NCBI GenBank assembly: GCA_947034885.2
Contig: OX344754.2
Coordinates: 3,782,001 to 3,846,000 of the forward strand
DNA from: Thuidium tamariscinum
Lineage: Eukaryota > Streptophyta > Bryopsida > Hypnales > Thuidiaceae
Reading direction: 5' to 3'
DNA length: 64,000 bases
Positions 8,809-60,008 of the stretch are shown in pieces (the stretch's first letter is position 1; every line of letters begins with the position of its first letter). The notes beneath the pieces were generated by a model. It saw only the letters and a list, made by a program, of their open reading frames with translations. It was not told the origin of the DNA and did no database searches. The position numbers were made by a program, and so were the translations under genes.

Positions 8809-9535
8809 GGGTGATTGCAAGAATGACTTCATAGTTTTGTCTCAAAATGGCCTGAGTACTGCACTACTGTGACTTTTGGAATTAAATTTTTTTTAATGAA
8901 TTAAAATATGGATACTCTTAAGAACACTCTAAATAGTATATGGATGAAAGTTCTAACTTAGAAAAATTTATCTCTAAAAGTTATGCTCTCTCAAAGAGTG
9001 ATGAAAAATACAAGAAAATAGGTAGTTTGGAATTTTATTATTTTTAAATAGTAAAAAAATTCAAAAAAAACAACAAAAAAAAACATTTTTTCTAATTTAA
9101 AGTTGATTCTTCTTGCCAATTTCCATCTTCGAAAAAATTATTTTGTATTCTCTACAAGTGTACCTTGGTAGTGCACTTTGAGCACATGTGGAAGGTGAAT
9201 ATTCTACTATTTTTAGAAAATCTCTCACAACCTTATGTAACTATAGTAGAAGTCTTCGTATCCCAGTTTTCACCTTCAAATTTGAAATTTAGGGTTGAAA
9301 ATAGTACTAAAACCCCTCAAAATGGCCAAGGTAGACATCCAATCAGGGTCAATTTAAAAATAGTAAACTAATTTTTAGGGATTTCAAAAAATTACCAAAT
9401 TTCAAAAACTTTAGTGTGTACCTCTGTTCCAAATTTCACGGAAAAAAAAGATACAATGCAAAAGTTATGAGCAAAAAACCACCTGTCCAAAGCCTAGGGG
9501 ACAACAAATAGGACAAGTCATTCTTGCAATCACTC
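8809..9535. mobile_element. ATTGCAAG-family element 1 (727 bp, TSD TCAT)
   Basis: The left end is GGGTGATTGCAAGAATGACT. The right end, read on the other strand, is GAGTGATTGCAAGAATGACT. The exact 4-bp repeat TCAT flanks it at 8805-8808 and 9536-9539. It has no coding capacity. The interior resembles the element at 59093-59826 (both begin with a TTTTGTCTCAAAATGGC block and both carry the AGTAGACATCCAATC/AGTAGACACCCGATC region), so I group those two as one subfamily. Confidence 0.88.
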
Positions 9536-10648
9536 TCATGAACTCATCCCCATGAAAATTTCAACATGCAAGTGACAATCATGAGATTCTCCAAATGAAT
9601 GTTTTCAATTTGATTTGTTTTTGGCCTTCACATACATTGTGAGGAGCTTCAACTAGGATACTGGAATATTACCGTAGAAGAAAGGAAAAAATAAAAATAT
9701 ATTACGGAATGTTAAGTAACAAAGCTGACTTTACATGTCAATGGCTTCTTGGCACAAAACTATCATGATGTTATTATTGATGGTTTGAGAGCGTAGCGGA
9801 ATAAAGCAACTAAACTTCATTTACAACTCACTGTAATTCCCCTAAGGAACTTGCATAAAATGACTACAACATTGTAGGACCATGGGATATGTACAATACA
9901 TTTCTAAAACAACTCATCAAATAAGCCTCCGTCAACGCTAGCAACAATGCATCAAACAGTCACCACCACATTGCTAAGGCTAGAATTTTTTTGAATGTGT
10001 TGACAAAACATGACAATTACATAGATCAAGGCAATTCAAACTAAACGGAAATCCATACTCTAATAATGAAATTCAAGGTAGCGATTGATGAAGTAGTTCT
10101 CATCGTACCTTTTGAGTCTATACGATTTCTACAAAAGAAAAAACTAACTAGAAACTTCATAAGAGAAACTCATGATTTCACACCAGCAATAGTCCCTATA
10201 CTAACCCCTCCAGTAGTCCATCAAAATGTGGTCCCATTCCAATTCTAACATATACAAGACAAGTAGTGTAAACAACCTTCGACAATTATAGAAGCAACTG
10301 CTTCCAACAATCAACACTGCAGTTCTAGTGGAGCCGGCCACCAAATAACCATTTGCTTCTTGAATGCTTCCCCCAAAATCTTGCACTTGCACTCAACATT
10401 CTCGTCGTCATCAATTTCCATGTACGCTAGCGGAACACTTGGGAAAATCACTTTCTTCAACCCCAAGTGGCCAGGTGCACTAGTTTTTGATATGTACGAT
10501 CTAGAGTGATTGCAAGGTCCCGATCAAAATCTGAATTATCTATTGAACCTACTCCTAGAAACTTGCAAGATTATGTGTTTTCCAACAACATCATGTCCCC
10601 AGGAACAATTGCCATTCCCTAGTACAACAAAGCAAACTTAGGTGCCCA
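9536..10648. other. intergenic DNA, no supported gene
   Basis: Mixed-composition DNA with short frames only. It ends at the CCA that is the left target-site repeat of the outer CACTA element. Confidence 0.5.
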
Positions 10649-12041
10649 CACTACTAGAAAATACATGTTTTATGACTACAAAATATGACTGCAATGAGTC
10701 ATGAAATCTCAAAATATGACTCATGCTAAAATCACTGTAGATGACGCAGGATATGACTGGTTCCAGTCGTTACCGACGAGTCGTTTTGGACATGAGTCAT
10801 ATTTGCAGTCATATACATTAGGGGGTATAATTAGCCATAATTAGCCATTTTTTGCCAACATGGCATATACGTTGACTATCCCTAGAGGTTTGACTTCTCT
10901 TGAGCTGCCGGGCAAAAGAAAAAATCCTACGTGACATATGATTCGATGTAGTTATATTTTTTGTTGATGTGGCATATGACTTGATGTAGTCATATTTTTT
11001 GCAGATGTGGCATATGACTAGAGAGTCATATTTTGGTTAATATGGCATACGACTTTACGTAGTCATATTTTCTAATGATGTGAAAGGTGACTCTTGTGAG
11101 TTATATCTTGTGATGTTGTAGAAAATGAATTGTGGGTCATATTTTTTGTTGATGTAAAAAATGACCCTTGTTAGTTGTATTTTTGGTTGATTTAAAATAT
11201 GACTCATGTGAGTCACATTTTTTGCTAATTTTGAAAAAAACCCTTGTGAGTTGTATTTTTTCTTGATGTGAAATATGACTCATGTGAGTCATATTTTTGA
11301 ATGATGTGAAATATAACTCATATGAATCATATTTTTTAATGATGTGGTAATTCATATGGAATGCTATTAATACTTTTATGATTGAATGTAGTCATATCTT
11401 TAAAAATTTAGAGTTACATTTATGGCTTCATTGTGAGTGTTATCTCACTACAAGTAATCATATTTTGACTAAGATATATTGTGAAATATTACTCAAGCAA
11501 GTGATATTTTAGAGAAGGGAGAGTTAAATTTCTTGCACTTGTATGCATAATTTGTAAATGGGAAGATTGAGGATTACAATCATAAACTATCACACTACAA
11601 GAGATGTGGGTATTTTGAGTAGAGAAAATAAGTAAAAAATTGCTGAAAAGACCTTAGTATTCCTAAAATCCCATGCTGTGAAGTAGAAAAAGGTACATTG
11701 AGTAGCGGATTGCTGGTCGGTCAAGTTTTATGAATCGTCCCTGACTCAACAAGCACTTTCAGTGAGTGGTTCTCTTGCGGTGGTGCTACAGTACCTCACA
11801 AAAGGAACATTTGCCATATGAGTTCTTCCTTTTTGTAAGATATGAGATCTTTGTTTTAATAGATTTCTGTGCATGCGACGATTCTTTCTCCTTCTTCTCG
11901 GCGACCTGCCGAGGTTTGTCCGTATTTCTGCTAATCACTAATCTCGATTTGGCATCGCCATCGCCATCGCAGTTCTCTTCAGTTCATTCTCGCCATCTCT
12001 CCTGTCGAAATTTCCTGTAATTCCCTGTTTCTGTTGCTGCG

Positions 12042-14576
12042 ATGGCCATGGCGATGGCGGCCTGCTCCTCCCTGGCAACTCCCGCTGCTACCTTGTCGTT
12101 GGTGGTGGCTCCTGCATCACGCCGGTTGCTGCGAGGCCGCCACCCGTCCATGCTCCATGCCAACTCCCACAGGTCAGTGCCATTACTCTTTCATGTTTTG
12201 TATCTTTCACGCTCAACTCACAGCAGATTGGGGTTCTGGGAAAACCGAAATTTCGTCTCATTTCGGCTTGATGTTCGCGGTTTCTTGAATGATGACGAGG
12301 TTGGTTTTTCTGTGCACGAAATTAGTGATTGGGTCAAGCAGAATTCTGGTCGATCACAGTTCCTATCATTATTTTTTCAAATTTGTGATGGGTGTTCTTA
12401 TTGGCGAGTGAAAGAGAGTTTCTGTGAGAATGTAGAATCTTCGAGCTCCCCAGCAATATAGACAACTTCCCCTTTCTCCCCTTAGGATGTCTCTGCCAGG
12501 GATACTCTTCAGCAGAGGTCCTTAACTCGACATGTGTCGCGGAGGGCACTCGATTATCTGATCGGCTTCAACCTGTCGCCTGTTCTGTGGCGCAAGTTGC
12601 CGGGTAGCAGGTCAGCCGGGCGTGTGCAGTCAGCTGCTCTTCGCTTGATTTGTGAACGTGAGCAGGAGATTGACGCATTTCGGAGCCGAGAATATTGGAG
12701 TGTTGAAACTCAACTAAGAAAGGATGGAGCCCAGGATGGAATTTCTTTTTCTGCTCGCTTAAATCACTTGAAGGGAGAGAAACTGGGTCAGGCTTCTATT
12801 GCCAATGATTTGGATGTACAAGCTGCGTCCAAAAAAGTTTCAGAAGCCATTCTGCATGTAAAGAGTGTGAAAAAGGGTCTCATTCGTCGCAAGCCTCCAG
12901 TCCTTTACATCACTTCCACATTACAACAGGATGCTTCCGCCAAGTTAGGATTTGGGGCCACTCGTACTATGTCGGTAAGTTTCTGTGAAGTTTGGATCGG
13001 GTTTTGTGACCGTTTTTTGTTCTTCTTTTATGTGATTGCTGAGACCCTTGGTGCAAATTCATTTCGATGTCAGCAAATGTGATAATTCTGAATAAAAGGA
13101 GGAATCCGAGGGTAGTAGTGGTTGTCATTTCGTTTCATCTTGGTTCCACAGTTTTTGTCAGAAAGATGCTGTCTGAGGCTCGCTTTGTTCTCAGAGTCAG
13201 ATTATCGAAACTGGATGAGTGTTTTAAGGGCTCCGTGACTATCCCTCGTAGTTTTGGCAAATATGAAGACTGGTATCGAATAGTCAAATTCTCTGGATGA
13301 TTTTGCTGAGAGAGTTTTGATCCTTTTTGCAGATAGCTCATCAATTATATGAGGGAGTAAAACTCAATGACGATGAACAAACAGGACTGATTACGTACAT
13401 GCGAACTGATGGTTTTCAGGTCCGTTTTGCTATTGTTTAGTAAATTCCTCATGCATATAATCGTATTATGAGGATTCTAAACAAGTTTTTGAGAGTTGCG
13501 CGAGCCTTTACCTGCAGTTTTTTGTAGTCCTTTTGGCCTTAATTACCTGTTAATTATTGTCGGTTTGGATTCAGATATCTGCAGAGGCATTGGACAATAT
13601 AAAGGATCTGGTTGGCTCGAGGTATGAGTCATTAAATCCTACCTCTTTTCATTTGTACATTCCTTTCAGTTTTTAAATGTTTCTCCAGGCTGTTCATTTA
13701 GGGGTATCGTACACCAAATATTGTAAGCAATGGCTAGCTTTTATAGGTTTAATGTTATTTAGAAATGAACGCGCTGGTGGATTTACTGATTGGTTAGGCT
13801 TGGTATCAATTGCATCCCTCTTGTAATGTAAACCAACTGAGCTTGGGTTCTTTATATTGGGATTGGCATGCATGGAATAAATTATCGGGATTTTGAGGTT
13901 CTGCTTGCAATGGCGTGGTACAGGTATGGACAAGACTATGTTCCGGCTGAAGGCAGGGTTTTGGTGTCCAAATTGAGAAATGCCCAAGAAGCTCATGAAG
14001 CCATTCGGCCAACTGATATATTTCGCCTCCCATGTAAGCTTGTTTTATTTCATGTTCTGTGTGTTCACATTCTGCTTTTAAACTATGATCAGTGCATCAG
14101 CATTGGTTGCGTTGAAGAATTCAGAGTAACCTTTGAGTAAGAGTCTTTACGATGGAACAAGTATACTTGGTGCTTTATTCCTGGAGAAAAATTCGTGGAA
14201 ATCAAGTACTTCATGATGCCAGTATTGTTGGAGAACTAATAATGCTGTAATTTCAAATTCGTTTTACAGGTCTACTAAAATGCCCACATATGTCGAGTTC
14301 CTTTTATGATTGGAGTGTACACTTCCATTTTTATTAGGTGATCAAGATATACTTCTGAATTCTAGCACGTAGGGAATGATTAACAGGACTTCTACTGTGG
14401 GTGTAGCATCTGTAGCTGATGTTTTGGAGGAAGATGCTTTGCAACTGTACAGCCTTATATGGGCTCGCACTGTGGCGAGCCAGATGGAGCCTGCTGTATC
14501 TAGCCAGGTTTGGATTCTCAATATTGAAGTGAATGGAGTTCAGTCCACCAAGTGTTTAGTTAATTTAGGCAATTGA
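12042..14576 (+). pseudogene. captured fragment of organellar type IA DNA topoisomerase gene
   Basis: Exons with GT-AG borders: 12042-12172 (43-residue Ser/Ala/Arg-rich start MAMAMAACSSLATPAA, chloroplast/mitochondrial transit-peptide-like), about 12500-12974, 13333-13419, 13575-13621, 13924-14033 and 14407-14507 or on to a stop at 14576. The second exon encodes RRALDYLIGFNLSPVLWRKL and SAGRVQSAALRLICEREQEI; the third has GLITYMRTDG with the DNA-cleaving Tyr; the fifth has QEAHEAIRPTDI. These match bacterial TopA and the plant organellar enzyme, which relaxes negatively supercoiled DNA by single-strand passage. All phases agree if the second exon begins at 12500, giving an uninterrupted frame of about 339 codons. 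The N-terminal Toprim domain (metal and DNA binding) is missing between exons 1 and 2, and the C-terminal third is absent. The product therefore could not be a working topoisomerase. It lies wholly inside the inner CACTA element, so I read it as a captured truncated copy; transcription is unknown. Confidence 0.88.
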
Positions 14577-14589
14577 TCAGAGAGGAAGG

Positions 14590-18973: not shown

Positions 18974-19032
18974 ATATGGACCTCAAACACTGATGTTTAA
19001 TGGATTTTATATTAACAAACACAAAATGCATA

Positions 19033-19330: not shown

Positions 19331-19338
19331 AATGCATA

Positions 19339-20177: not shown

Positions 20178-20718
20178 GGGTGATTGCAAGAAAGGCCTCC
20201 CATTTTTTGTCTTCTTTTGCCACAATACTCATTTTTTTGGGAGTAATTTAAAAATAGAAAAACTATTTTTTTTAAATGAAAAATATGTCCAATGTATATT
20301 TCTTTAAGAAGAAGGTATCCTATGAAGGAAAAGTGTAGAAAAATTCTCTAAGTAGGTGAATTAGAAATGAATGTAGAGGGTATAAAATAATGTTTTTTAA
20401 AGTTCTTTTTGGTAGGTACATAAATCTCTAGTCTGGGAGTAGACCACATAAATTTCAAGTCTACATCACTAATTTTGGATACTCCATAGTACTAAGAACC
20501 TCTAAATTGCAAAGTGTGACAAATTAGCTAAATTAGAATTTAATTAGAATTTTTTTTTTTAAATTTCTAAAAAATAAGAAATCTCATTACTGTCAAGTTG
20601 GACATCTTCAATAAAAATTTCAAGCAAATTGGCTTCATGACCCAAAAGTTATTATCAATGGCATGAAAGTCACTTCAATTGTGACGCCAAAAACAATAGC
20701 CCTTTCTTGCAATCACCT
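20178..20718. mobile_element. ATTGCAAG-family element 2 (541 bp, TSD TGAG/TGAA)
   Basis: Left end GGGTGATTGCAAGAAAGGCC, inverted right end AGGTGATTGCAAGAAAGGGC. Flanks are TGAG at 20174-20177 and TGAA at 20719-20722, one mismatch. The interior shares the block AGAAGGTATCCTATGAAGGA with elements 31834-32562, 54521-55254 and 57967-58697, and the block AAATTGCAAAGTGTGACAAA with the duplicated repeats at 29.0 and 42.3 kb. It is the shortest complete copy. Confidence 0.82.
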
Positions 20719-28993: not shown

Positions 28994-30112
28994 TACATGA
29001 TTTCTGTAGAGACTAGCCCGTTCTTGGGTCATTTCAAGAAAGACTTGTCAAAAAGCATGATAGTGCTTTGTACAATATTCATTTTTTTCTTTGGGACTAC
29101 TGTATAATTAGTAAATCAATTTCTTTTAAAGTAAAAAATATTTTTGATGTATATATCTTTAAAAAGAAGGTACTCTAAGAAAGAAAAGCATAGAAAAATT
29201 CTCTAGGTATAATAACTAGAAAAGTGCAAAATTTTATGAAAATTGTAACTTTCACTATAGTTATACATTTTAATTTGTAAAAACTAGGAATTGTTTTTAA
29301 AAAATTAAACATTCTTCATTTGGAAAGGTTTTATAATAAAGAGATTCCATCAAAAGAATGATCTTGAAATCATTTTTAATATTCAAAATTATATATGCAA
29401 AGGAGCTCCATTTGCATGAACATAGAAGACATAAAATAATGTTTTTTAAAATGATTTTTGGTAGGCAGTTAGGCACATTCTTGCTGAGTTTGGAAATAGA
29501 TCCTAGAAATCTCATATCTAGATCATTAATTTTAAGTACTCCCTAGTACTAAAATTCCCTAAATCGCAAAGTGTGACAAATTAGCTAAATTTAAATTTAA
29601 ATATAAAATGGTTTTTGAAAATTTATCACCACTCAATATATAAGTTAGAGGCACTAGTAATTGATTGATTAACCCTGGACTGCCGCTAGTGCCATTTCGT
29701 AGCATTTGGATGACAGTCTAAGGTCATAAGAAGAGGTAAACAATAGGTTTTTCATCCATTTTTTTAAACGATCTTTCATGTTGAGTTACAAAAAATATCC
29801 AACTGAGTATCTAGTCTAACTAATGTTTGTTTTCATGTAGTTGAGAAGTAATTAGAGAAAACAAATGGCAAAATTTGCCATTTTAGTGTATATAGAGAAA
29901 TTGAGTAAATCTAAAATTTCTCCTTGAAAACAACATTTTTCGAACTTAAGGTCAACTAATGAAATAGAGGTCCTCTACTCTAGTTTCTTTTCCAATTTGA
30001 ATTTTAGAAAAATTTGTAAAATTGAATACTTTATTGCAGTTTGAACTTTGGTGGTATTTTTAATGTCTATTTCATTCTAATTATAGATGTAAACATCAAA
30101 TCAATTTACACT
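28994..30112. repeat. long interspersed repeat, copy A
   Basis: Matches 42249-44080 along its length after removal of a 713-bp insertion from the latter. Both share GACTAGCCC near the start, then a degenerate ATTGCAAG-family left end (GGGTCATTTCAAGAAAGAC at 29026), then AAGTGTGACAAATTAGCTAA near 29570 and TTCATGTAGTTGAGAAG near 29830. It looks like a chimera of an ATTGCAAG-family 5' half and unrelated sequence. No coding potential. Confidence 0.8.
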
Positions 30113-30544
30113 ATGATGTTTTTCACTATAATGTTCACACATGGTGAAATTTTCAGATTTTTTGAGATTATTTTCTATTTGATATGATTTTTTCTTCAGT
30201 TTTTTTTTTAAAAATTTCATAAAATACAATTTTCCTCAAAAGAATCTGAAATTTTTGTGAAGTACTAAAGACATGTAGTTTCATCTTTGAAAAATAAAAT
30301 AAAAAAATTTCATACACATCTAGTCACAAAATACCAACAAACTGAGTGACAAACAATGAGCCCTAAAACTAGTGGTTATAGGCTTGGCTTTTCAAGGTTA
30401 AGCAATTTTAGAACAAATTGTGCATAGTTTTAGGTAATGAAATTTTTTCCATGTAGGAAGATAGGAAATATAGAGATAGAATTTTTTTTAGAATTTTATT
30501 GTTGAAACTAAAATTACTGTGAATTTAGGGAGGTAAAAATTTCA
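30113..30544. other. AT-rich intergenic DNA
   Basis: No repeat structure or reading frame worth naming. It separates the long repeat from the inverted-repeat MITE that follows. Confidence 0.45.
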
Positions 30545-39127: not shown

Positions 39128-39601
39128 CTAATTAGCAATGGTGGTGTTCAGCCGCATTCTAATGGTGTCGGGTTGGCATGGTTGTCCGTAGCAGATCAAG
39201 TAATCGTGGACAACGTCAGTACTCCCTTTTCCACGAGGGCATTTGATAGTGGCTTTGTTTCTGTCTGCGCCATGGCATGTGGCGATCACTTTGCCGTCGC
39301 CGCCCGCAACGAAGACGGAGTACGTTCCGTCGTTGTTGTGATAATGGTCGAGTTTTTGGTAGCCGCAGAAGTTCGAGATGGTGAAGAAATTCGTCAACGA
39401 GGGTGGTTTCTGCGAGACTTTTCCTCTCCGATCCCCGCTTCGGTAGCACTTGCAGTTGTAGTAGTTGGAGGGGCAGGCAGCGAAGGACTTGCCTCCACCA
39501 ACTACATCCGACACGTGGTAGTTGGCCTGCACCCTCGATGCAAAACCCGCCATGGCCACCAGCGTCACGCAAACCAGCATCAGAAGCTTAATCGACCCCA
39601 T
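39128..39601 (-). CDS. small secreted cysteine-rich protein, 157 residues
   Basis: An intact single-exon frame on the minus strand. Residues 1-26 form a classic signal peptide (MGSIKLLMLVCVTLVAMAGF, with cleavage likely after VQA), so the product should be exported to the apoplast. The mature part of about 131 residues has eight cysteines at 43, 50, 52, 79, 109, 121, 137 and 142 (C-x6-C-x-C-x26-C-x29-C-x11-C-x15-C-x4-C), enough for four disulfides. It is basic and rich in Gly, Tyr and Asn; no membrane segment or GPI signal follows. I do not recognise the fold: the spacing is not that of defensins, thionins, lipid-transfer proteins, snakins or hevein. A TATA box lies at 39714-39721, about 115 bp upstream of the ATG. 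Pathogen response or cell-wall interaction is a reasonable guess from the class only. Nothing in the frame is broken, in contrast with its pseudogene neighbours. Confidence 0.78.
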   Translation of the reverse strand: MGSIKLLMLVCVTLVAMAGFASRVQANYHVSDVVGGGKSFAACPSNYYNCKCYRSGDRRGKVSQKPPSLTNFFTISNFCGYQKLDHYHNNDGTYSVFVAGGDGKVIATCHGADRNKATIKCPRGKGSTDVVHDYLICYGQPCQPDTIRMRLNTTIAN

Positions 39602-39713
39602 TCTAAGCTACAAACACGCCGAATGACTTGAAGCGACTACACTGAGGAGGAAGCGAAGCGAGTGAGTGCAGGATTGTTCGAATGAACTGTGAAGCAACAC
39701 ATGAAGCTGTTTG

Positions 39714-39815: not shown

Positions 39816-40184
39816 GTGCCTCCAATCCAGTTCTTTTTTTCTATTGAGTTCTCAAATAGTGGAACTACATATAGCATCATGTCTCTTTGCGGCCTTGAAA
39901 CACCTTTCGCATGCAGTTGTGGTACGAACAAAGTGAATGGGAGAAAAGCTTTCTCTGCTGTACTCCCTCTGTCTCGTACTATGAGTGGGCCTTGGTGCCG
40001 AAAGGCATGACGAACTGCTGACAATCCAAGGCATGGCGGACGGCATTCCACGGCCGGACGGCAAGTTTGACATTACAGTCACCGTCCTTCAATTGCATGC
40101 CAGTACGTGGGAGTCCGACGTACTGGACAACAAAACCTTATCCAAGGAAATCAAAAACTTCGACAAGTGGTGACACCCAAGGGT
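39816..40184. repeat. upstream region with segments duplicated at 44.1 and 61.4 kb
   Basis: 39906-39980 (CGCATGCAGTTGTGGTACGA onward) recurs at 44114-44180. 39988-40150 (GCCGAAAGGCATGACGAA onward) recurs at 61402-61550. The second piece is open on both strands in both copies and differs between them by an in-frame 3-bp gap, so it may derive from an exon, but I cannot name the protein. TGACACCCAAGGG at 40171 also occurs at 61689. Confidence 0.7.
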
Positions 40185-40411: not shown

Positions 40412-41160
40412 TTAACCCCTAAAGCCCTGAGGTGCATTTTTTGGCATTATAAATTTTTTGGGCAACTCACTATGAATGGAGTTTTTGTTTTTTTTTGCTG
40501 AAATTTTATACAAGATGTGCCCCAGGAATAGCTTTAAAGCCCAACAATTTTCGTAACTTTTGACTTTGTGGTTAAAAAGTTATGGCATGATATGTTGTTT
40601 TCTTTACTCAAAGGGCAACCCAAGCAGCTGAAAAAACTTCTTTAAAAACACTTTTTATTCAAAAAGCGAAATTTCAAATTGATTCTTTAGGTTTTTACAG
40701 ACATGAGAAGCTTTATTTCATTCCATTTGGATTAAGGAGTCAAAAGTTATGAGCAATTTTAGTTTGCGGATAGGTATGGTTTTCAAAAATTCCATACCTA
40801 CTCGCAAACTAAAATTGCTCATAACTTTTGACTCCTTAATCCAAATGGGATGAAACAAAGCTTCCCATGTCTGTAAGAACCTAAGGAATCAATTCGAAAT
40901 TTCACTTCTGAAAAAAAAAGTGTTCTCAAAGAAGTTTTTTCAGCTGCCCAGGCTGCCTTCCAAGTAAAGAAGAGGACATATCATGCCATAACTTTCTAAC
41001 CACAAAGTCAAAAGTTATGAAAATTGTTGGACCTTAAAGCTACTTCTTGGGCACATCTTGTGTAAAAATTTCAGCAAAAAAAAATAAAAACTCCATTTGT
41101 AGTGAGCTGCCCAAAAAATTTATAATGCCAAAAAACACACCTCAGGGCTTTAGGGGTTAA
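40412..41160. mobile_element. TTAA-flanked foldback element (piggyBac-like non-autonomous), about 741 bp plus TSD
   Basis: Almost the entire element is one inverted repeat. The left arm (TTAACCCCTAAAGCCCTGAG onward) and the right arm (inverse of CTCAGGGCTTTAGGGGTTAA) pair over about 365 bp with few mismatches around a centre near 40790 (GGTATGG, TTTTCAAAAATT, CCATACC). Each end is TTAA followed by CCCCTAAAG. A TTAA target and CCY-type termini are the signature of piggyBac elements, and a piggyBac transposase relic exists at 3.2-4.7 kb. Kolobok and Sola3 also use TTAA, so the superfamily is inferred. It has no coding capacity. A transcript would fold into a long hairpin. Confidence 0.85.
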
Positions 41161-42248: not shown

Positions 42249-44080
42249 CATGAATTCTATATAGACTAGCCCATTTTTGGATCATTTCAAGAAAGACTTG
42301 CCCAAAAGCATGATAGTGCTTTGCACAATATTAATTTTTTTCCTTAGGACTACTATATTCAATTTTTTTGAAAGTAAAAAATATTTTTGATGTATATATC
42401 TTTAAAAAGAAGGTATTCTAAGAAATAAAAGTATAGAAAAATTCTCTAGATAGGATAACTAGAAAAGTGCAGAATTTCATGAGAATTGTAACTTTTAGTA
42501 TAGTTATACATTTTAATTTGTAACATAGGAAAAGAATTTTTTTTGAACTAAAAGTTCTCTGTTTGGGAAGACTTTATAATAAAGAGATTCCATCAAAAGA
42601 ATGATCTTGAAATCATTTTCAATATTCAAAATTGTGTGCACAAAGGAGCTTTGTTTGTATGAATATAGAGGACATAAAATAATGTTTTTTAAAGGGATTT
42701 TTGGTAGGCACATGCTTGCCTAGTTTGGAAATAGACCCTAGAAATCTCATTTCTAGATCATTAATTTTTAATACTCCCTAGTACTAAAAATCCCTAAACC
42801 ACAAAGTGTGACAAGGTGATTGCAAGAAACACTTGTCCTATTTTGTGTCACACGTTGCATGCTGATCTGTTTTTTGCCCATAACTTTTGTGTTTTAACTC
42901 CGATTGACTCAAGATTTGTACGGAAGGTACTCATAACTATCATAAAACTTCCATAATTTTTTCATAATTTTAAGAAATAATTTACTATCCAAAAATAGAC
43001 CCCAATTGGATGTCACACTTGGCAATTTAGGGGGTTTTAGTACTAGGGAATACCTTTTTTCTAATGATTTTAACATGAAATTTGGATGAAATGGTGTTCT
43101 AGTAGATTTCTAGCTCTCTAGGTAAGGATTTTTAAAAATAGTTAATTTTATGTGGTGTGGAGATCTATAAAGTGAGCTCCCTTCTGCTTGTATTTTGAAA
43201 GACATAAAATATTATTTTGGTGGATTTTTTGGTGAATGACCATCTCTATAAAGTTTTTGCAAATCTAAACTTTATATTTTTTGAAAATATCTATTTTTAC
43301 TATTTTTCCCTAATTAAAACATGAAGATGTGTATTTTTTGGAGGTTTGGCATTTTTCAAGTTCTCCTACTTAGAGAATTTTTCTATGCATTTTCTTCAAT
43401 GAAAACCTTCATCTTAGAGGTATATACATTATTCATATTTTTCTAATTTAAAAAAAATTAATTTTCTAATTTTAAAGTACTCCCAAAAAACGCAACAAAT
43501 AGGACAGGTGTTTCTTGCAATCACCCGACAAATCAGCTAAATTTAAATTTAAATATAAAGTGATTTTTGAAAATTTATCACCACTCAGCATATAAATTTG
43601 AGGCACTAGTAATTGACCATTTAACCCTAGACTGCCGCCCGGTACCATTCTGTGGTATTTGAATAATAATCGGGATGACAATCCAAGGTCATAAGAAGAA
43701 GTAAGCAATAGGTTTTTCATCCATTTAAAAAAAATGACCTTTCATGTTGAGTTACAAAGAGTATCCAACTGAGTTTTTAGTCTAACTAATGCTTGTTTTC
43801 ATGTAGTTGAGAAGTAATTAGAGAAAACGAATGGCAAAATTTGCCATTTTAATGTATTTTGAGAAATTAAGTAAATCTGAAATTTCTCCTTGAAAACAAC
43901 ACTTTTTGAATTTGAAGCCAACTAATGAAATAGAGTTCATGTACTCTAGTTTCTTCTCCAATTTGAATTTTAGAAAAATTTATAAAAATTGAATATTTTA
44001 TTGCAATTTGAACTTTGGTTGTATTTTTAATGTCCATTGCATTCTAATTATAGATGTAAGCAATAAATCAATTTACACCA
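42249..44080. repeat. long interspersed repeat, copy B, interrupted by a nested element
   Basis: The same repeat as 28994-30112 in the same orientation. It is split at 42813/43527 by the element 42814-43526, and its right edge meets a truncated ATTGCAAG-family end at 44083. Copy A shows the uninterrupted target. Confidence 0.85.
42814..43526. mobile_element. ATTGCAAG-family element 5, nested in a repeat (713 bp, TSD GACA)
   Basis: Left end AGGTGATTGCAAGAAACACT, inverted right end GGGTGATTGCAAGAAACACC. The exact repeat GACA flanks it (42810-42813 and 43527-43530). Copy A at about 29574 reads GTGTGACAAATTAGC with a single GACA, which is the pre-insertion site. Near-identical in inverted orientation to 33300-34022. 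Confidence 0.93.
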
Positions 44081-44082: not shown

Positions 44083-44180
44083 GGGTGATTGCAAGAAACA
44101 CCTGCTGATTTCGCATGCAGTTGTGGTACGAACAAAGTGAATGGGAGAAAAGCTTTCTCTGCTGTACTCCCTCTGTCTCA
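44083..44180. repeat. truncated ATTGCAAG end fused to a copy of 39906-39980
   Basis: GGGTGATTGCAAGAAACACC is followed within ten bases by CGCATGCAGTTGTGGTACGA, which comes from upstream of the cysteine-rich gene. The donor site there also reads GAAACACCT before the same sequence, so the fusion could have used that shared word. Confidence 0.7.
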
Positions 44181-44639
44181 TACTATGGCTGGGTGAACTG
44201 ACCCCCTCCTCAGTCCCTCAGGAAAACGCTGAAATTTTTTATTTTCCTTGCAAGATCAAATTTGCAAGTTTTGAATTCATAATAACAACCAGAGACCCCA
44301 AACTGATTGGAAGGAATGAAGAAGGTACAGTACATTATTCAAGCACAAAATATGGGAGAAATTAATTAAGCTTTTCATAACATTCAATAGCATTGGTTGG
44401 CACTACCTTTGGAGGGTGTGGAATATTTGACACCCCAATAGTGTTTCATCACTAACTATTGAAGGAAGTGGACAAGTGGAGGATGGAGAGTCTGCTGGGG
44501 TGTGGAATATGCCACACCCTTCACTGTAGAAGGAAGGCAATGCCACAACATGTTACTATATGTTATGTTATTTTTACTTGCACCTTTGAAATGACTTGAT
44601 GGGGCTTGGAGGGGCCTTGGACATGTGGTTATTTAATTG
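44181..44639. other. unassigned sequence
   Basis: A plus-strand frame runs through 44141-44365 but resembles nothing known. 44370-44530 carries the GGTGTGGAATAT half sites noted under the palindromes. Confidence 0.35.
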
Positions 44640-45304
44640 TAACTTTTGTATTGTTTGTCAATTTTACACAAAACTTGAAATAAAGGTACACATAAAAGTT
44701 CTAGACACAATATGATCTTTTGAAATTCTTAAAAATGATTTTACTATTTTTAAATAGGCCCCATTTAGATGTCCACTATGGCCATTTTGGAGGCTATTTT
44801 GTCCTAAATATTTTGACCCAAAAATGAAATTTTTAAGCTCAAAATTGGAAAGCAAGGACTTATACTAAAGTTACAGAAGACCACAAAGAAATTTTTAAAA
44901 AATAATAAATTGTCCAATTTCCACATGTGCTCAAAATAGACTACTTTTGCACATATATACACAACACAATTTGTTGTTCTCAAATATGAAAATGCTTGAA
45001 GAAGAGCATCTTGAGATAAGAAAAAATGGATTTTTTTGTTATATTTTTTTGAAATTTTTCACTATTTTTAAAAAAAACAAGTATTAAAGTGTCTATTTTC
45101 ATTGTATTTTCCATTGTGCTTTTTCTGTGCATAATTTTCAGAGTTAAATTTTCTTAAGTCTGAGTTTTAAGAGACACAATATTCTCACTTTTCTTCAAAT
45201 TATTCATATTTTATTTCATTTCAAAAAATTTATTCCAAAAGTCATAGGACTCATTGAAATAGGCCATTTTGAACCAAAAACGGTAAGTGTTTCTTGCAAC
45301 AACC
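44640..45304. repeat. decayed ATTGCAAG-family copy
   Basis: The right end is recognisable (inverted GGTTGTTGCAAGAAACACTT, ending at 45304). The interior resembles the inverse of 59093-59826, for example TAGATGTCCACTATGGCCATTTTGG. The left end was not found. Confidence 0.55.
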
Positions 45305-47964
45305 TTCTTCTAGTAGATTTGTATCTAATTACCAAAGGAATTGAAAAAATAATTATTTTTATCTAGTTTAGAAGTCCACAAAGTGAACTTCTTTCTGCTT
45401 GCATTTTAAAACATGTGAAAAATGATTTTGGTAGGATTTTTTTATGAATGGCCATCTCTATGAAGGTTTTGTAAATGTCCAATTCTTATTAAAAAAAAAA
45501 ATTCTATTTCCTAAAATGATGTTTTAATTAGGAAAAAATAGAGCCACTCTACAAACCTCCAAGGACCCCATGAATTGTTTTTATTTTGCCTTAAATTTGT
45601 TTTTTCCCTATTCTTGCACACACTCTGCAATTTTGTTGCAATGTTAGCCAACATGAATTTTCCAAACGTTGTCAGTCTATATACCCGGGCATTAGAATAG
45701 AATAAAATGCAATAGAATACAAGATTTTCAACAAGAAAATTGAACGAACAAAGTAGCTTTTGTACTACATATTTGATTTTGTGCCACTTACTCATTTCAG
45801 TGTCTTAACCAATTTTGTGTTGAAGTAGGAGAGGAAGGAAGTTTTTTATACTAGTAGAGTAGTGGTAGATTAAACAAACCATGTGGGATATTTAAATTAG
45901 GAGAAAAAGGAGTTCCACCACTCATGGTTAACTCCTAAATGCCCAAGGCCTTTTTTGAGCTTCTAGGATTTTGCTCTAAAGTGAACAAAAAGTCAACTTT
46001 ATGATAAACTTCATCAATTTTTTTTAATTGTAATTCTACAAATTTAAACTAGACATTTTAGTGATGATTTAGGAAAAAAAACATGACAATATCACTAATG
46101 GATTGACAAATTATAATATTTGATCATGAAGGTGTCAAAATTGCAAAAGTGATGTGGTAGAATGTAGAAATGTGTTCTGATTGACAAAAAACTTTAAATC
46201 ATAGAAGATGTAGGTAGATGAAGTAATAGACTAGGATTGGATGAAAAGATAGATAAATCATCCAATGTAATCAAAGCTTAAAATTTTAGTGGAAGTCCTT
46301 ACCAAAATACATTTTAAAAATCTCAAGTTCTCAACTCATTCCAAAAGCTAGAATTTCTTTAAAACATAAATGAAGATTGATGAGTTGATTAGCAATCAAA
46401 CTTTATCCTTTCATAACTTTTGCTAGAAGAATCAGATTGGATTGATCTTTACTTTTTTTTAATAAGAAGAAGGATGCTCTACAAATTTAAGTCAATAGTT
46501 TTGGTTTGTACAATTGTTCTTGGAAAACCACAATGGCCTTGGTAATTGACTCCAAACCTTAGTAATCATGTTGCCAATCAACATTTCAATCCAATTCTAT
46601 GATTTCAATCACTTAGGTATTTTAAGAAATACATTGCTTAAAAGGCACAATGAACCTATGTTTACTGCTTAGGCATCCACTAGTAGAATCATATTTCGAT
46701 AATCAAAAGTACTTAGTTGTATTAGGTTAGTTACCAAAGGTGGGTAATTAGTTGTTCACTCAATTATACTACAAAACTCATCCAAATTTGTTCATTTTAT
46801 GACAAAATCAATGCAAAATTAGTGCAAATAAGAAGTACCCCTAAACCCTAAAATTCTAATAGATACATGAAAAGATGGTTATAGTTTGTTTATCTTGGAT
46901 GCTTATGATTCTATTCAATGGACATTTTTGTAAATTTAGGACAAAAAAATTCAAAAATTCAAAGAAATTACAATTTTAATCAAAAAATTATAATTTTACT
47001 TAGATTTGATTTATGAAACAAATGCACACTTTTGAAAGTATGTTGACCTCTTGGATTTGGCCCTAAAATATTTACATTGCAAACTAGGGTGGTAATAGGG
47101 TTGTGTACCTTATAACTAAAATCGATAGATTTTATAGCTTTACAAATTTCATAATGTTGGACAAATTCACAAGGTGTTGTGGAAGTTTATTCCTTCACTA
47201 CCTAAAGTCTAAATGCACCTAAAGGTATCATTTCTTTTCAAGCCTTACAAAGTCTATATGTCACTAAAGTGTGAAGATCTCAAACATACAATCTTGTAGT
47301 GTACATGTTGCAAATGATGAGGATCAAATTTGGAGTCATTTGACTGCATAGATTACAAATTGAAAATATTTTAGTGACAAAAAATATGCTAAAATTTAAC
47401 AACAAATTTAATTAAATTTGGACATCAAATGCAAAAGTTACTATGCTTTTGAATTAGACTGCTAGACTATGTGGAGACATTTTTCATCCCCTTTGGCAAT
47501 AAGGGACTACCTCTTAAATGTCCACTCTACATTTACATTTATATGGTCAACATCATCCATTCCTTACATTTTAAGATATATTATAATTTAGGACACTTAT
47601 TTATCTTGTTTATTCTTAAACATATTTACTTTGAATTTTTTATGATTATATAAATATAAATATAATTTTAAAGATTTAAAACCAATGTAGCACGTAAGAG
47701 GTTCACTAATTTGAAATCCTCTACAGTTTTTTCCTCCTATGTGGCATTTTTTTTTGTTTATAATGTGCCTAAGTCCACGTGAGCTAGCAAAAGCTCTCAC
47801 AATGTACTTGTGCCATCCCTAGCCAATGAAGGAGCAAAAATATAAGAGGTTTAGTATAGCACTTATTGATTATCCAAAAATAAATATGTTGTGATTTGAG
47901 CATGGTTACCATGGAATGTTCAAATCCCGATAGTAAAGTCAACTCAGCAAGACTTGGGAATGAG
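45305..47964. other. AT-rich intergenic DNA with an ATTGCAAG-family internal fragment
   Basis: 45305-45540 matches the interior of 42814-43526 (GTAGATTT, AAGTCCACAAAGTGAACTTC, CTGCTTGCATTTT) without ends. Beyond that, no gene, repeat or structure was recognised. Confidence 0.45.
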
Positions 47965-49167: not shown

Positions 49168-50161
49168 AGGTCATTGCAAGAAACACCGACCACTTTTGTA
49201 GCGCTTTGTAAAATTTGTTCTTGTCCAATGCTATAACTTTTGATTGATGAATCCAATGCCCAAACCAAAAAAATATATTTCTAGAGTTCTTGATTGCAAC
49301 CATATTATATATTTTTCAAAATTTCAAAAAAATCACTTTATATTTAAAAGTTATTTTGTTAATTTGTCACACTTTCAAGATTAGGGTTTTTTATACTATT
49401 GATTGGTTTAAATTAATGATTTTTGGTTGAAATTTCTGTGGTATGTTTTTATAGTAGGTAGACATGTCCCTACCAAAGGGCATCTAAAAAAACATTATTT
49501 TATGACCTCTACATTAGTGCAAACATGCCTCCCTTGCGCGCACACTTCAAAACATTAGAAATGGTTTTGAAATTATTTTCTTAGTCAAACCTCATCACCA
49601 AGAAGTATTTTCAAATGGACAATTTTTAGTTTTGTTCAAAAATGTTTTTCCTTTTTTTTACAAATAAAAATATCAATGTATGTATTTTCTTTACTAGAAT
49701 TCAATGTCCAAGATGATGTCCTAGAAAATGGTGATGAGGTTTGACTAAAAAAATAAGTTCAAAACCATTTCTAATGTTTTGAAGTGTGCGCGCAAGGGAG
49801 GCATGTTTGCACTAATGTAGAGGTCATAAAATAGTGTTTTTTTAGATGCCCTTTGGTAGGAGCATGTCTACCTACTATAAAAACATACCACAAAAATTTC
49901 AACCAAAAATCATTAATTTAAACCAATCAATAGTATAAAAAACCCTAATCTTGAAAGTGTGACAAATTAACAAAAATAAATTTTAAATATAAAATAATTT
50001 TCTTGAAATTTTGAAAAATATATAATATGGTTGCAATCAAGAACTCTAAAAATATTTTTTGGGGTTTGGGCATTGGATTCATCAATCAAAAGTTATAGCA
50101 TTGGACAAGAACAAATTTTACAAAGCGCTACAAAAGTGGTGGGTGTTTCTTGCAATGACCT
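49168..50161. mobile_element. ATTGCAAG-family foldback element (994 bp, TSD TATT/TGTT)
   Basis: Left end AGGTCATTGCAAGAAACACC, inverted right end AGGTCATTGCAAGAAACACC. Unlike the other copies, nearly the whole element is an inverted repeat. Arms of about 430 bp (49168-49600 and 49730-50161) pair almost perfectly around a spacer of roughly 125 bp; for example GTGCGCGCAAGGGAGGCATG (right) is the complement of CATGCCTCCCTTGCGCGCAC (left). Flanks are TATT and TGTT. A transcript would form a very long double strand. Confidence 0.92.
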
Positions 50162-51539
50162 TGTTTGAGGTGAGAATTTTTTTTATTCCTATGAACAAGG
50201 GCAAAGAACTTCAAGACTTTTCAGACTAAAATTTTACAACCATTCATGAGAATATGATGTTAGGTTCATTCATGAAGGATTTCAAAAGTAAATATAAAAT
50301 TTAACTTATTCTAAATCAACTTACAATAAAAGAAGGTCAAATGCATTAGCAATACACTAATCATTTTTTGATGTTTTCTTGTATGATGAGAAATTTTTTC
50401 ATTTGAAATTAAAATTTAATAAAAATAGGAAAAACATTTGAAATATTTAGAAAAAATTTCAAGAACTTTGATTTCATAGGTTGAAAATGAATAGAAATTG
50501 AAGTTAGAAAAAAAAAATTCTTGAAGTTACTCCAATATAACAAATAGAATTTGACTTTGCTTAAATGTCATATTTTATAAGTTGCATATATATGCCAAAT
50601 TTGAAAAGTCAATGAGTGTTTTTGCAAAAAATGTACTAAAGATGCCCAAATTGCCTAGTCTATAAAAAAAATTTAGGGGATTAGAACTTTGATTTGGATA
50701 CTCAATTGAAAAAATTATACTTCCACTTAAAGACGTGCACATTTACACGTTTATAAAAATTTTATGAACATCCAACGAAAATCCACTTCAAAGGAACCCA
50801 CCTAAATTTTCAATTGTCTATTCAATGAACAATTGGCTTTAAGAGGTAAAAAACTATGACTTGGTCATTGGTCAATGGCACTTGAATTGAATTGATTATT
50901 GCTGATTTCAGGTGTATATCCTACACATATATATTGTAGAAGGAAAGAAATTTTGTAAAGAAAAGTGGAGGTAGGAAAAATTAGACACTTGGATTTTAAA
51001 TGTAAAATAGATCCACTTTAAAATCCACATAAATGAATTTACAAAAAATAAATGGTATTGAAAATATGCCAGCCTTTGTAGCTTTCTATGTAAAAATACA
51101 GTCCTCTTAAATACAAGAACTAAGGTAAATAGCCCTACATCAAATACCCTCTTAACTCAAGTGTATACCTTAAGGTACAAGGAGTGGTCTCACCAAGGCG
51201 CAATACTACTAGTACTACATGTCAGTATTGTACGTGCAAATTTTAACCGTTGATTTAGGACCTCTAGATTTGAATTGTCAGTTAGTACTATGTAGTACTA
51301 TAGACTACTACAAAGAATTGTAGAAGCCATTAGTAGCAAAAAATAGTAGTAAAGAAGTTTGTGGACTTTTTCATTTTTAATAATTCAAAAAAATTTAAAA
51401 ATTCCTATAAAAAAATTATTAAAAAATTCATTTTTTTAGACAAGATTGTGCTTACATTGCAATAAAAAATTCTTCTAGGAAATTTTTTCCCTCTTTGTAG
51501 CCTTTGCCCTTAAGAAGGTCACTTTGATCCTATGTGTGC
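50162..51539. other. AT-rich intergenic DNA
   Basis: No gene. 51200-51340 contains clustered TAGTACTA and AGTACTACA words, perhaps ends of a decayed element, but I could not define one. Confidence 0.45.
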
Positions 51540-51891
51540 AACAAATATGTTTCTATTTTCATAAAAACTCATCATTGATCCTTGCAATGTTGATAGACCT
51601 CCAACATGTCCAATTTGTGGCTTCAAATTCGGATATTTGGGTCAAAATAGGACTACCTCCCCACCCTACCCCACCACCAAAATGACCAAAGTAGACATTC
51701 AATTGGGGGTAGGTTAAAGATAATAAATTAATTTTAAATTTTAAAAAAAAATTACTCAACATCGAAAACTTTTATATGGACCTTCAATTTTCAAGGTAGA
51801 AGGACAAAAGATGCAAATTTTTTGAGAAAGAAACTACATGTTGGAGGTTGAGGGGACAAAAAAAAGGAACTAGTATTTCTCGCAATCACCC
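51540..51891. repeat. ATTGCAAG-family 3' fragment
   Basis: Ends at 51891 with the inverse of GGGTGATTGCGAGAAATACT. The interior (AAGTAGACATTCAATTGGGG, GGTTAAAGATAATAAATTAA) matches the right halves of 8809-9535 and 59093-59826. The left end is missing. Confidence 0.6.
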
Positions 51892-52612: not shown

Positions 52613-53325
52613 GGGTGATTGCAAGAAAGAGTGGTCCTATTTGGAATCACAATTCAAATGCCAAAGTTATTATTAGCTATAATTTTTAGAGCATGAAGCC
52701 AATTGAATTGAAATTTTTACTAAAGATGATCAACTTAAATGTAATGAGATTTCTTATTCTTTAGAAATATCCAAAAAATATTTTCTAATTAATTTTTCAC
52801 ACTTTGGGGTTTTTAGTATTGAGGAGAACCTTAAATTTATAATGTAGACTTGAAATTTTTGTGGTCTATTTCTACACTAGAAATGTGTGAGCCTACCAAA
52901 ATGAAATTAAAAAAGCATTATTTTATGTCCTCCACATTCATGCAAACGAGGCTTTTTGTACGCACAATTTTGAACATTGAAAATGGTTTCAAGATCATAC
53001 TTTTGGTGAAATCTCACTTCTATAAAGCCTTACACAATTTCTAATTTTCAATTTCTTTGAATTATTTTCCCCTATTTATTATTGATTAAAACACCAAAGT
53101 ACCAATTTTTATGAAATTTTGCTCTTTTTTAGTTCACCTAGTTAGAAATTTTTCCTATGCTTTTCCTTCTTAGGGTACCTTCTTCTTAGAAGTATATACA
53201 TTAATTGAACATATTTTTAAAATTAAATTTTTTTTTTTAATCTAATTTTAAATTACTCCCCAAAAAATCATGAGCACTATGGAAAACGCTACAAAAAAAA
53301 CAAATGCTCTTTTTTGCAATGACCC
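52613..53325. mobile_element. ATTGCAAG-family element 7 (713 bp, TSD TATA/TACA)
   Basis: Left end GGGTGATTGCAAGAAAGAGT, inverted right end GGGTCATTGCAAAAAAGAGC. Flanks TATA and TACA. The interior is the reverse orientation of the 54521-55254 type: AGGGTACCTTCTTCTTAGA here is complementary to the AGAAGGTACC block there. Mixed G and C in the two ends shows that both TIR subtypes can sit on one element. Confidence 0.8.
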
Positions 53326-53609: not shown

Positions 53610-53962
53610 GTGGCCGATAGGTCAAGGGGACAAAAAATAGGACAAGTGTTTCTTGCAATCACCTAAGACCATCTTCAAATTTCAGCTCAAAATTCATTTT
53701 TTGGGGTGCTCAATAGTACTAAAAACCTCCAATTTGGTTTAGGGTTTAGGATTAAGTATAACATTAAATCGGGGTTTATTTTTGAATAGTTAACTATTTT
53801 TTAAAAATATGAAAAATTAGGAAAAGTGTATAATAGTTAAAAGTACAATCTTTCCTATAAATTTTGAATCACCTAGAGCCAAAACACAAAAGTTATGGCC
53901 AAGAAACATATCAACACACACCATGTAACATAAAATAGTACAAATGTTTCTTGCAATCATCC
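53610..53962. repeat. two abutting ATTGCAAG-family 3' ends
   Basis: One fragment ends at 53663 (GGACAAGTGTTTCTTGCAAT, then CACC). Directly after it, 53664-53962 is the right half of a 33300-34022-type copy, ending GTTTCTTGCAATCATCC. No left ends are present, so these are remnants of two elements joined by deletion or nesting. Confidence 0.6.
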
Positions 53963-54520: not shown

Positions 54521-55254
54521 GGGTCATTGCAAGAAAGGGAGTCCATTTCTGTAGCGTTTTGGATTTGGATGCTTTTCTTTTCGGGAGTACTATTTAATTA
54601 GAAAAACACTTTTAAAAAAACATGAAAAATATGTTAAATGCATATACCTTAAAGAAGAAGGTACCTTATAAAGGAAAAGCTTTGGAAAATTCTTTAAGTG
54701 GGAGAATTAGAAAAGTGCCAAAACTCATGAAAATGGGTATATTTAGATTTTAATTTGTAAAAAATAGGAAAATTTATTTTTCTTAAATCTAAAAATTGTC
54801 CATTTGGATAGAGTTGATGGTGATGAGATTTTACTAAAAAAATTTATCTTAGTACCATCATCAATGTTCAAAAATTGTATGCAATGGGAGTGCTATTTGC
54901 ACACATGTGGAGGACATAAAATAATGTATTTTTAGATTTCCTTTGGTAGGAATGTGCTTTTCTACTATGAAAATGCACCATGAAATTTTCAGCTTTAGAT
55001 CATTAAATTAGGGGACTCCGAATGTAGTACAAAACCCTAAACCTCAGTTTGTGACAAATTAAGAAAAATGATTTTTAAATATAAAATGATTTTTTTTAAT
55101 TTCTGAAAAATAAGGGATGTGAAAACCATCAAGTTAGATAGGTTCAATAATTATTTCATATTGTTAGATCTTTAGATTCAAAAGTTATAGCAGAAAAGAA
55201 CGACGTCACTCCAATTGTGACGGAGAATAGGACTAGCGTTTCTTGCAATGATCC
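54521..55254. mobile_element. ATTGCAAG-family element 8 (734 bp, TSD AATA)
   Basis: Left end GGGTCATTGCAAGAAAGGGA, inverted right end GGATCATTGCAAGAAACGCT. The exact repeat AATA flanks it (54517-54520 and 55255-55258). The interior aligns with 57967-58697 and 31834-32562 through AGAAGGTACC, GGACATAAAATAATG and the terminal AATTGTGACGGAGAATAGGA block. Confidence 0.9.
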
Positions 55255-55415: not shown

Positions 55416-55628
55416 TCAACATAATTAAGAGTGGTTTGCTAGCATTAGATATAGATGTGAGTACTTTATCACAACTTGTGTGAACACCACCACCTTTGGT
55501 TGGCATTTATCAAGACTACATTTTGTCCAAACCATAGTACGCCAACCCACTATGGTCACTATAGCATCTCACTTACACCAACGCTTATGTAGCACCAAGG
55601 GTGAAAGGCCTGTAAGGGTGGGCAAAAA
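55416..55628. repeat. duplicated segment with the unoccupied site of element 59093-59826
   Basis: Homologous to 59058-59092 plus 59827-60008. It reads TTTGCTAGCATTAGATATAG straight through, with no insertion. It continues GTGAACACCACCACCTTTGG, GGCATTTATCAAGACTACAT and GAAAGGCCTGTAAGGGTGGG, all diverged slightly from the second copy. No coding function recognised. Confidence 0.88.
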
Positions 55629-57966: not shown

Positions 57967-58697
57967 GGGTCGTTGCAAGAAACACTGTCCAAAAAGCATA
58001 GCATTTTGCAACATAGTCTTTTTTTTTCGGGAGTACTTTAAAATTAGAAAAACCAGTTTTAAAAAAAGTGAAAAATATGTTTCATGTATAAACCTTTAAG
58101 AAGAATATACCCTAAAAAGGAAAAGCATAGGAAAAATCTCTAAGTAGGAAATCCAAAAAAGTGCAAAATCTCATGAAAATTAGTACTTCGACATTTTAAT
58201 TTGTAAAAAATAGGAAAATCAATTTTAAGAAAAAATAAAAATTGTCCATTTGAGGAAAGTTGATTTTGATGAGATTTGACCAAAAGAACGATCTTAGAAC
58301 CATCATCAATGTTCAAAAATTGCGTGCCACGGGAAAAAATTTGTACTCATGTGGAGGATATAAAAAAACATATTTTTAGATTTTTATTTGAAATTTATAG
58401 GTTTTACACCTATGCAAATAGACCATGAAAGTTTCCTCTTGAAATCATTAAATTTAGACACTGCGAACGTAATGATAACTATAAACGTAATTTTGTGATG
58501 CTCAACGAAAATGTTTTTTAAATATAAAATGATTTTTTTAAATTTCTGAAAAATAAGGGATCTAATAAACTTCAAGTTAGGTATGTTCAATAAAAATTTC
58601 ATGTTCATTGGACTTAATCTCCAAAAGTTATTGTAGACAACAAAAAAGTGGTTCTCATTGTGACATGAAATAGGACCGGTGTTTCTTGCAATGACCC
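57967..58697. mobile_element. ATTGCAAG-family element 9 (731 bp, TSD AGAT)
   Basis: Left end GGGTCGTTGCAAGAAACACT, inverted right end GGGTCATTGCAAGAAACACC. The exact repeat AGAT flanks it (57963-57966 and 58698-58701). Closest relative in the window is 31834-32562. Non-coding. Confidence 0.92.
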
Positions 58698-59057
58698 AGA
58701 TTCCAACTAAAAAGATCTAATCATTAAGCATTTTTTACAAACAATCCAAAGATAGTTCACATTGTTGCACCAATGCACCTATATAGTCTTTTTTAATGTT
58801 TTAGAGGAAGATTTATTTATGAAAAATAATAATCTTTACATGATAGGTCCAAATTCAAAATGTGAATTTGTATGTCATTCTTTAGGGCTTACATCCCTAC
58901 ACGTCTTAATGGCTTAAATGATGAACAATTTCTTAGGTCATTTTCAATTTTTTCAAGGTAAAGACTATTAATTAAAAAAATAATCTTTTCAAGAGATTCA
59001 ACTTTCTTCAATGTATGATTTTGTACCTAGGTGATTCTTTATGGCCCACATGCCTTG
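58698..59057. other. intergenic DNA
   Basis: AT-rich; nothing recognised. Confidence 0.45.
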
Positions 59058-60008
59058 TTATCAACACTATTAAGTGGTTTGCTAGCATTAGAGGGTCATT
59101 GCAAGAAATACTTACTAGTTTTGTCTCAAAATGGCTCAAAATCAATGAGTCCTGTGAGTATTGTGACTTTGGGAATAAATTTTTTTTAAATTGAAAAAAA
59201 TATGGATAATTTGAAGAGCAATGAAAATATTATGTCTCTTGAAATTCAGACCTAAGAAATTTTTTCTTTAAATGTTATAGACAATGGAAAATACGATGAA
59301 AATAGCTCATTTTTCACTAATTTGGTAAAAATAATTCAAAAATGAAAAAAATGAAAAAAAAAAATCAATTTTTTTTCCAAGTAAAGGTATTTTTTTCAAC
59401 AAATTTCATTTTTGGAAAAAATTAATTTTATTCTCCACACTTGCACAAAGTCAGCCACTTCAACAACATGTGGAGGTTGAACAATATAGTATTTTCAAAA
59501 AATCTCATTGTGGTCTTGTGTAACTTTAGGTGAGGTCCTTGCATGCCAATTATCAGCTCAAAATTTGCATTTTGGGGTCAAAAATAGGATTAAAAACCCC
59601 CAAAATGGCCAAAGTAGACACCCGATCGCCCGATCAGGGTCAATTTAAAAATAGTAAATTAATTTTGAAAAAATTGAAAAAATTACAGAAAATGTAAAAC
59701 TTTTGTAGGCACCTTCATTTCAAGTTTCAAGTCAAATGAAGAAAAAATGAAATAGTTATGAGCAAAAAACTACCTCCTAAAGGTCAAGGGGACAAGAAAA
59801 AGGACAAGTGTTTCTTGCAATCACCCTAGATATCTAGATGTGAGTGCTCTATCACAGCTTGAGTGAACACTGCCACCTTTGGTTGGCATTTACCAAGACT
59901 ACATTTTGTCCAAACCATGGTGTACTAATCCACCATGGTCATTATGGCATCTCATTTACACCAATGTTTATGTAGTATCAAGTGTGAAAGGCCCATATGG
60001 ATGGGCAA
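59058..60008. repeat. duplicated segment, occupied copy
   Basis: Second copy of 55416-55628, containing the 734-bp element 59093-59826 and one extra TAGA. Right of the insertion it continues GTGAACACTGCCACCTTTGG and GAAAGGCCCATATGGATGGG. Confidence 0.88.
59093..59826. mobile_element. ATTGCAAG-family element 10 (734 bp, TSD TAGA)
   Basis: Left end GGGTCATTGCAAGAAATACT, inverted right end GGGTGATTGCAAGAAACACT. The exact repeat TAGA flanks it (59089-59092 and 59827-59830), with a related empty site at 55441-55460. The interior is of the 8809-9535 type. Confidence 0.94.

Follow-up and report, generated by a model that had tools for sequence, protein, structure and literature searches.

Elements of the Sola superfamily generate 4-bp target site duplications (TSDs), carry terminal inverted repeats (TIRs) of 11-1124 bp with variable termini, are described as 2-9 kb long and encode a DDD transposase; their presence in Physcomitrella is recorded (PMC10741241). 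Plant members are listed as Sola1, with Physcomitrella and Capsicum named (PMC9033089). A count of 2,739 Sola elements, beside PiggyBac, was given for Ceratopteris (PMC6890710), and Azolla is described as rich in SOLA (PMC6786969). The Sola2 elements of Dictyostelium and Polysphondylium have AT-only 4-bp duplications (AWWT; ATAT, AAAT, ATTT) (PMC3627910). A second group for comparison is formed by the miniature inverted-repeat transposable elements (MITEs) of plants, nearly all described members of which are placed in five superfamilies: Mutator, CACTA, Tc1/Mariner, PIF/Harbinger and hAT (PMC12550479). Here, a family of short DNA transposons is described from a 64,000-nucleotide stretch of the genome of the moss Thuidium tamariscinum (contig OX344754.2, positions 3,782,001 to 3,846,000), referred to below as the window.

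The Thuidium family consists of short DNA transposons that are non-autonomous, MITE-like and apparently non-coding. It is a real TIR family of small cut-and-paste elements with a 4-bp stagger, because the flanking 4-mers of its copies agree and related empty sites hold the 4-mer only once; the duplications claimed in an initial annotation of this DNA are thus true ones. Like Tourist and Stowaway, the elements are AT-rich, TIR-bounded and nested, and their copies are numerous within the window. In contrast to plant MITEs, which are mostly shorter than 500 bp (PMC10741241), they measure about 730 bp, and neither their TSD length nor their ends agree with any of the five usual superfamilies. They resemble Sola elements in that the 4-bp duplications are not fixed to TTAA, and that superfamily has been reported from moss and ferns.

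Copies, termini and target site duplications

The window contains a total of 17 copies and pieces, 10 complete and 7 fragmentary. The complete copies, whose coordinates were all correct in the initial annotation, are as follows (left/right TSD last):

8809-9535, plus strand: subfamily A, 727 bp; TCAT/TCAT
20178-20718, plus strand: subfamily B, 541 bp, internal deletion (profile ~195-380 gone); TGAG/TGAA
31834-32562, plus strand: subfamily B, 729 bp; TTAT/CTAT
33300-34022, plus strand: subfamily C, 723 bp, carries the uninterrupted A-in-C site near 33741; AGTT/AGCT
42814-43526, minus strand: subfamily C, 713 bp, lies within an older B copy, with its empty site near 29575; GACA/GACA
49168-50161, no strand assigned: 994-bp palindrome (B 731-210 then 298-731); TATT/TGTT
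52613-53325, minus strand: subfamily B, 713 bp; TATA/TACA
54521-55254, plus strand: subfamily B, 734 bp; AATA/AATA
57967-58697, plus strand: subfamily B, 731 bp; AGAT/AGAT
59093-59826, plus strand: subfamily A, 734 bp, empty site near 55446; TAGA/TAGA

Complete copies range from 541 to 994 bp and have a G+C content of 26-30%. Many pairs are less than 75% identical, although 8 of the 10 copies fall within 713-734 bp. Their inverted ends read GGGT[G/C]ATTGCAAGAAA. Compared with GGGTSATTGCAAGAAA, 11 of the 20 ends are exact, 8 have one mismatch and one has two; when the window was shuffled three times under a first-order Markov model, no match to GGGTSATTGCAAGAAA at two or fewer mismatches appeared. 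TIRs of 18-34 bp (at least 80% identity) bound nine copies, and the tenth (49168-50161) is palindromic throughout. T4, T7, T8, C10, A12, A14 and A15 are conserved in all 28 ends examined, each of which starts with two purines.

The left and right flanking 4-mers of the ten copies agree at 35 of 40 positions. As initially reported, five pairs are identical and five differ by a single base each, a degree of mismatch that would be expected of copies this diverged. Random re-pairing of left and right flanks never reached this agreement in 200,000 trials. Agreement drops to 1-13 of 40 when the boundary is shifted by 1-3 bases in either direction, and among flank lengths of k = 1-12 none but 4 matches at more than 45% of positions; a longer duplication masked by misplaced boundaries was rejected on these grounds. 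For comparison, random pairs of 4-mers from the window are identical in 0.7% of cases and alike at three or more of the four bases in 7.0%. The 20 flanking 4-mers have an A+T content of 76% vs. 66% for the window. Neither 8- or 9-bp duplications nor long copies coding for hAT or Mutator-like element (MULE) transposases were found within the window.

Across the 14 x 14 pairings of plus and minus ends, exact 4-mer matches occur in seven, five of which are copies named above. The other two (49168/51891 and 29026/45305) are taken as chance. A single long element at 49168-51891 (flanks TATT/TATT) was rejected, as 50161 is the better-matched end and belongs to the same subfamily, although the TSD there agrees at only three of four bases. 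The pairing of 29026 with 45305 (TCTT/TCTT) was likewise rejected, the two ends being of different subfamilies and 16 kb apart.

Subfamilies, nested insertions and a palindromic copy

Subfamilies, empty sites, nesting and the palindrome are additions to the initial annotation. Profiles were built for three subfamilies: A (8809, 59093), B (20178, 31834, 52613, 54521, 57967) and C (33300, 42814). Their matches cover 10,209 of the 64,000 bases, or 16% of the window, and add seven fragments, in line with the "at least seven" first counted. Two isolated ends come on top of these. The additional sites are listed here, the fragments and isolated ends with the search that located them:

29026-29625, plus strand: fragment, B 1-581, holds the empty site (~29575) for the 42814 insertion; profile search
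30826-30870, plus strand: isolated end, one mismatch in 16, first ~45 bases inspected; end-motif search
42279-42814, plus strand: fragment, B 1-535, broken by the 42814 copy, the profile match reaching that copy's first base; profile search
44083-44104, plus strand: isolated end whose 22 bp of TIR give way to unrelated sequence that recurs at 39905-39989; end-motif search
44612-45304, minus strand: fragment, A 2-706, outer flank TCTT, terminal base 45305; profile search
45306-45489, minus strand: fragment, C 260-442, host of the A insertion; profile search
51339-51891, plus strand: fragment, A 206-746; profile search
53618-53664, plus strand: fragment, A end (700-746), outer flank AAGA; profile search
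53665-53962, plus strand: fragment, C 439-725, remaining part of the A-in-C host; profile search
55420-55628, plus strand: related pre-insertion counterpart of the 59093 site, with TAGA present once

For three insertions, the window also contains a related site in its pre-insertion state, where the 4-mer (GACA, TAGA or AAGA) occurs once. These sites are related repeats, not alleles, and they confirm the 4-bp duplication independently. The copy at 42814-43526 lies within an older B copy, inside a repeat whose uninterrupted counterpart (28996-30115) is 85-87% identical; the latter reads GTGT-GACA-AAT and the former GTGT-GACA-[element]-GACA-AAT. The right flank of 59093-59826 matches 55446-55628 at 84%, and the last ~19 bases of its left flank also match near 55446, where a single TAGA is found. 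In the third case a subfamily-A element is inserted into a subfamily-C element at CTAG-AAGA-CCAT, with flanks at 45306 and 53665. The uninterrupted CTAG-AAGA-CCAT site occurs near 33741 in copy 33300, and copy 42814 holds the same target place with one base changed. This A-in-C element is present as two pieces, 44612-45489 on the minus strand and 53618-53962 on the plus strand, which together cover A 2-706 and 700-746. A single composite broken up by an inversion of ~9 kb would account for the arrangement, and four of the seven fragments may then be parts of two elements; possibly, the pieces instead represent two separate copies.

Pairwise identity is 92% between 33300 and 42814, 85% between 31834 and 57967, 71% between 8809 and 59093, and lower in other pairs. 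Because the values spread from 92% to 71% and below, several bursts of transposition are likely.

The copy at 49168-50161 is self-complementary along its length (~90%, with gaps) and consists of two B right halves arranged head to head, with one type of end left and right and TATT/TGTT as flanks. That a copy bearing two ends of one type has inserted, flanked by a 4-mer that matches at three of four bases, suggests that the ends are interchangeable for the enzyme; if this copy transposed in one piece, a pair of ends of a single type would be enough for transposition. Any transcript of 49168-50161 would be expected to form a hairpin of several hundred bp and may be a source of small RNAs.

Coding capacity and candidate transposases

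The longest stop-free frame of each complete copy is 53-103 amino acids (aa), and for each copy at least one of 60 shuffles has a frame of that length or more; there is no coding signal in the ten complete copies. Window frames were also scanned against Pfam. The scan comprised 100 frames, that is, 97 of the 98 stop-free frames of at least 72 aa (10821-11036, minus strand, was left out) and three shorter ones, with the remaining frames below 72 aa, which make up most of the 461 frames of at least 45 aa, lying outside it. The only transposase matches were to DDE_Tnp_1_7, in three frames of the minus strand within 3192-4493. The other matches were to Topoisom_bac (one strong, one weak), together with weak ones under curated cut-offs that are taken as chance. 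The initial claim that the family is non-autonomous is supported by copies lacking a coding signal and by the lack of a matching transposase among the scanned frames.

On balance, the family is probably a MITE-like satellite of a Sola-superfamily element, the source of the enzyme being one that we infer. Sola is the simplest remaining candidate because MULE, CACTA, Tc1, Ginger, PIF, hAT, piggyBac and most Kolobok elements fail on TSD or ends, and it appears to fit best among the three groups initially named (Sola, Ginger and Academ). Because the published Sola2 duplications in two amoebozoan groups are AT-only, unlike those of the window family, an enzyme of the Sola1 type would be favored over one of the Sola2 type. 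A transposase encoded elsewhere and acting in trans would recognize GGGT[G/C]ATTGCAAGAAA, treat both ends of the element as equivalent and cut it out at the GGGT termini. The element would then be joined to a target site cut with a 4-bp stagger, repair of which would yield the duplication. The group had been called little described in plants; this is a fair description, although precedents exist in Physcomitrella, Ceratopteris, Azolla and Capsicum.

Several points weigh against a Sola origin. The comparison draws on the published description of the superfamily rather than on its end sequences. Known Sola elements are coding and measure 2-9 kb, whereas the window copies measure 541-994 bp. None of the 20 flanking 4-mers has the AWWT form reported for Dictyostelium Sola2, and 5 of the 10 TSD pairs contain a mismatch. 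No transposase linked to the family ends was found among the 100 Pfam-scanned frames, which is weak evidence on Sola, as Pfam may lack a Sola model. A 24-base end pattern had no match in viral or prokaryote contigs, nor did one C copy match plasmids, although a plant element is not expected in either. Repbase names non-autonomous families by TSD length and the first 11 terminal bases, with one mismatch allowed (PMC4455052). Within the open-licence literature, which is a limited scope, end-motif strings of 12-15 bases gave no text match under a transposon-related title, and no account of MITEs that combine these ends with 4-bp duplications was found. The sections consulted of PMC12550479, PMC12595863, PMC4455052, PMC12477816 and PMC10294476 contain nothing decisive on its affiliation.

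As an alternative, the same kind of element may be moved by an Academ- or Kolobok-like enzyme unreported from land plants, or by one of an undescribed group, an explanation that is possible but distinctly less probable than Sola. Academ elements produce duplications of 3-4 bp, with which the length observed here is compatible. The two purines that start all 28 ends recall the published 5'-RR...YY-3' termini of Kolobok, and the solo repeats of KolobokP show duplications of 3-5 bp; however, reports of KolobokP are confined to animals, and the remaining Kolobok elements have TTAA as their duplication (PMC9587614), which is absent from all 20 flanking 4-mers. Sola would call for no new distribution. 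It seems unlikely that a transposase superfamily unrecognized in land plants (Academ- or Kolobok-like with relaxed 4-bp targets, or undescribed) drives a prolific MITE-like family; if one did, the five-superfamily scheme would miss a whole class of plant MITEs.

An origin from one of the five usual superfamilies would agree with the placement of nearly all described plant MITEs, and G is often the first base of PIF/Harbinger and MULE elements. This origin is nonetheless improbable, being contradicted within the window: 4 bp matches at 35 of 40 positions, and 3, 8 and 9 bp match at only 7%, 25% and 24%. PIF elements duplicate 3 bp and hAT elements ~8 bp, lengths at which the flanks agree at 2 of 30 and 20 of 80 positions, respectively. 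As published, Mutator duplicates 7-12 bp and Tc1/Mariner TA, and CACTA elements combine a 3-bp duplication with CACTA/CACTG ends (PMC10741241); here, k = 7-12 matches at 22-34% of positions (null 27-33%), and neither CACTA/CACTG ends nor a 3-bp duplication is seen. Ginger, put forward initially, occurs in plants and duplicates 4-6 bp, but has TG...CA ends and TIRs of 40-270 bp (PMC10741241). In contrast, the family has GG...CC ends (none of the 28 begins with TG) and shorter TIRs (~18-34 bp in 9 of 10 copies), making a Ginger satellite very improbable. Least probable of all is an origin as a piggyBac satellite, mobilized by kin of the remnant at 3192-4493. Elements of the piggyBac type duplicate TTAA (PMC9587614); although piggyBac-type transposase remnants are present in the window, the absence of TTAA from the flanks is at odds with it, and a different element at 40412-41160, with TTAA-CCCC...GGGG-TTAA ends, fits piggyBac.

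Neighboring features and implications

A broken piggyBac-type transposase gene lies on the minus strand at 3192-4493 in at least three pieces, identified by the Pfam model DDE_Tnp_1_7, which we take to represent the piggyBac family:

4059-4493, minus strand: DDE_Tnp_1_7 piece, E 3e-15
3879-4055, minus strand: DDE_Tnp_1_7 piece, E 2e-8
3192-3404, minus strand: DDE_Tnp_1_7 piece, E 1e-6

In a sequence search of solved structures, the 4059-4493 and 3879-4055 pieces match piggyBat weakly (E 0.04 and 0.02), and the latter matches structure 6x67, presumably piggyBac, likewise weakly (E 0.002). The fold-back at 40412-41160 is 88% self-complementary, with TTAA-CCCCTAAAGCCC at both ends. It fits a piggyBac-type satellite and, by ends and duplication, is unrelated to the 4-bp family. 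A fragment resembling it is located at 32565-32728, in the right flank of copy 31834.

The one clear gene of the window is a type IA DNA topoisomerase exon-like frame at 12486-13079 (Pfam Topoisom_bac, E 7e-35), with a weak Topoisom_bac continuation at 13841-14137. At 39131-39607 (minus strand), a 159-codon stop-free frame (157-aa open reading frame) has a start resembling a signal peptide by eye and several cysteines; it has no Pfam match. The window also contains a tandem array at 10931-11346 (unit 38/76 bp; 11.1 or 5.5 copies) and a duplicated segment at 35579-36431 and 62729-63577 (92% identical over 869 aligned columns). It gave no Rfam match at gathering thresholds and no hit in a tRNA scan.

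If Sola or a neighboring group is responsible, a superfamily held to be rare in plant surveys has left dense satellites, amounting to 16% of the window. A pipeline with only the five superfamilies as categories for plant MITEs (PMC12550479) would miss or misfile such elements. The end motif together with the 4-bp rule provides a direct handle for locating the transposase in the full genome.

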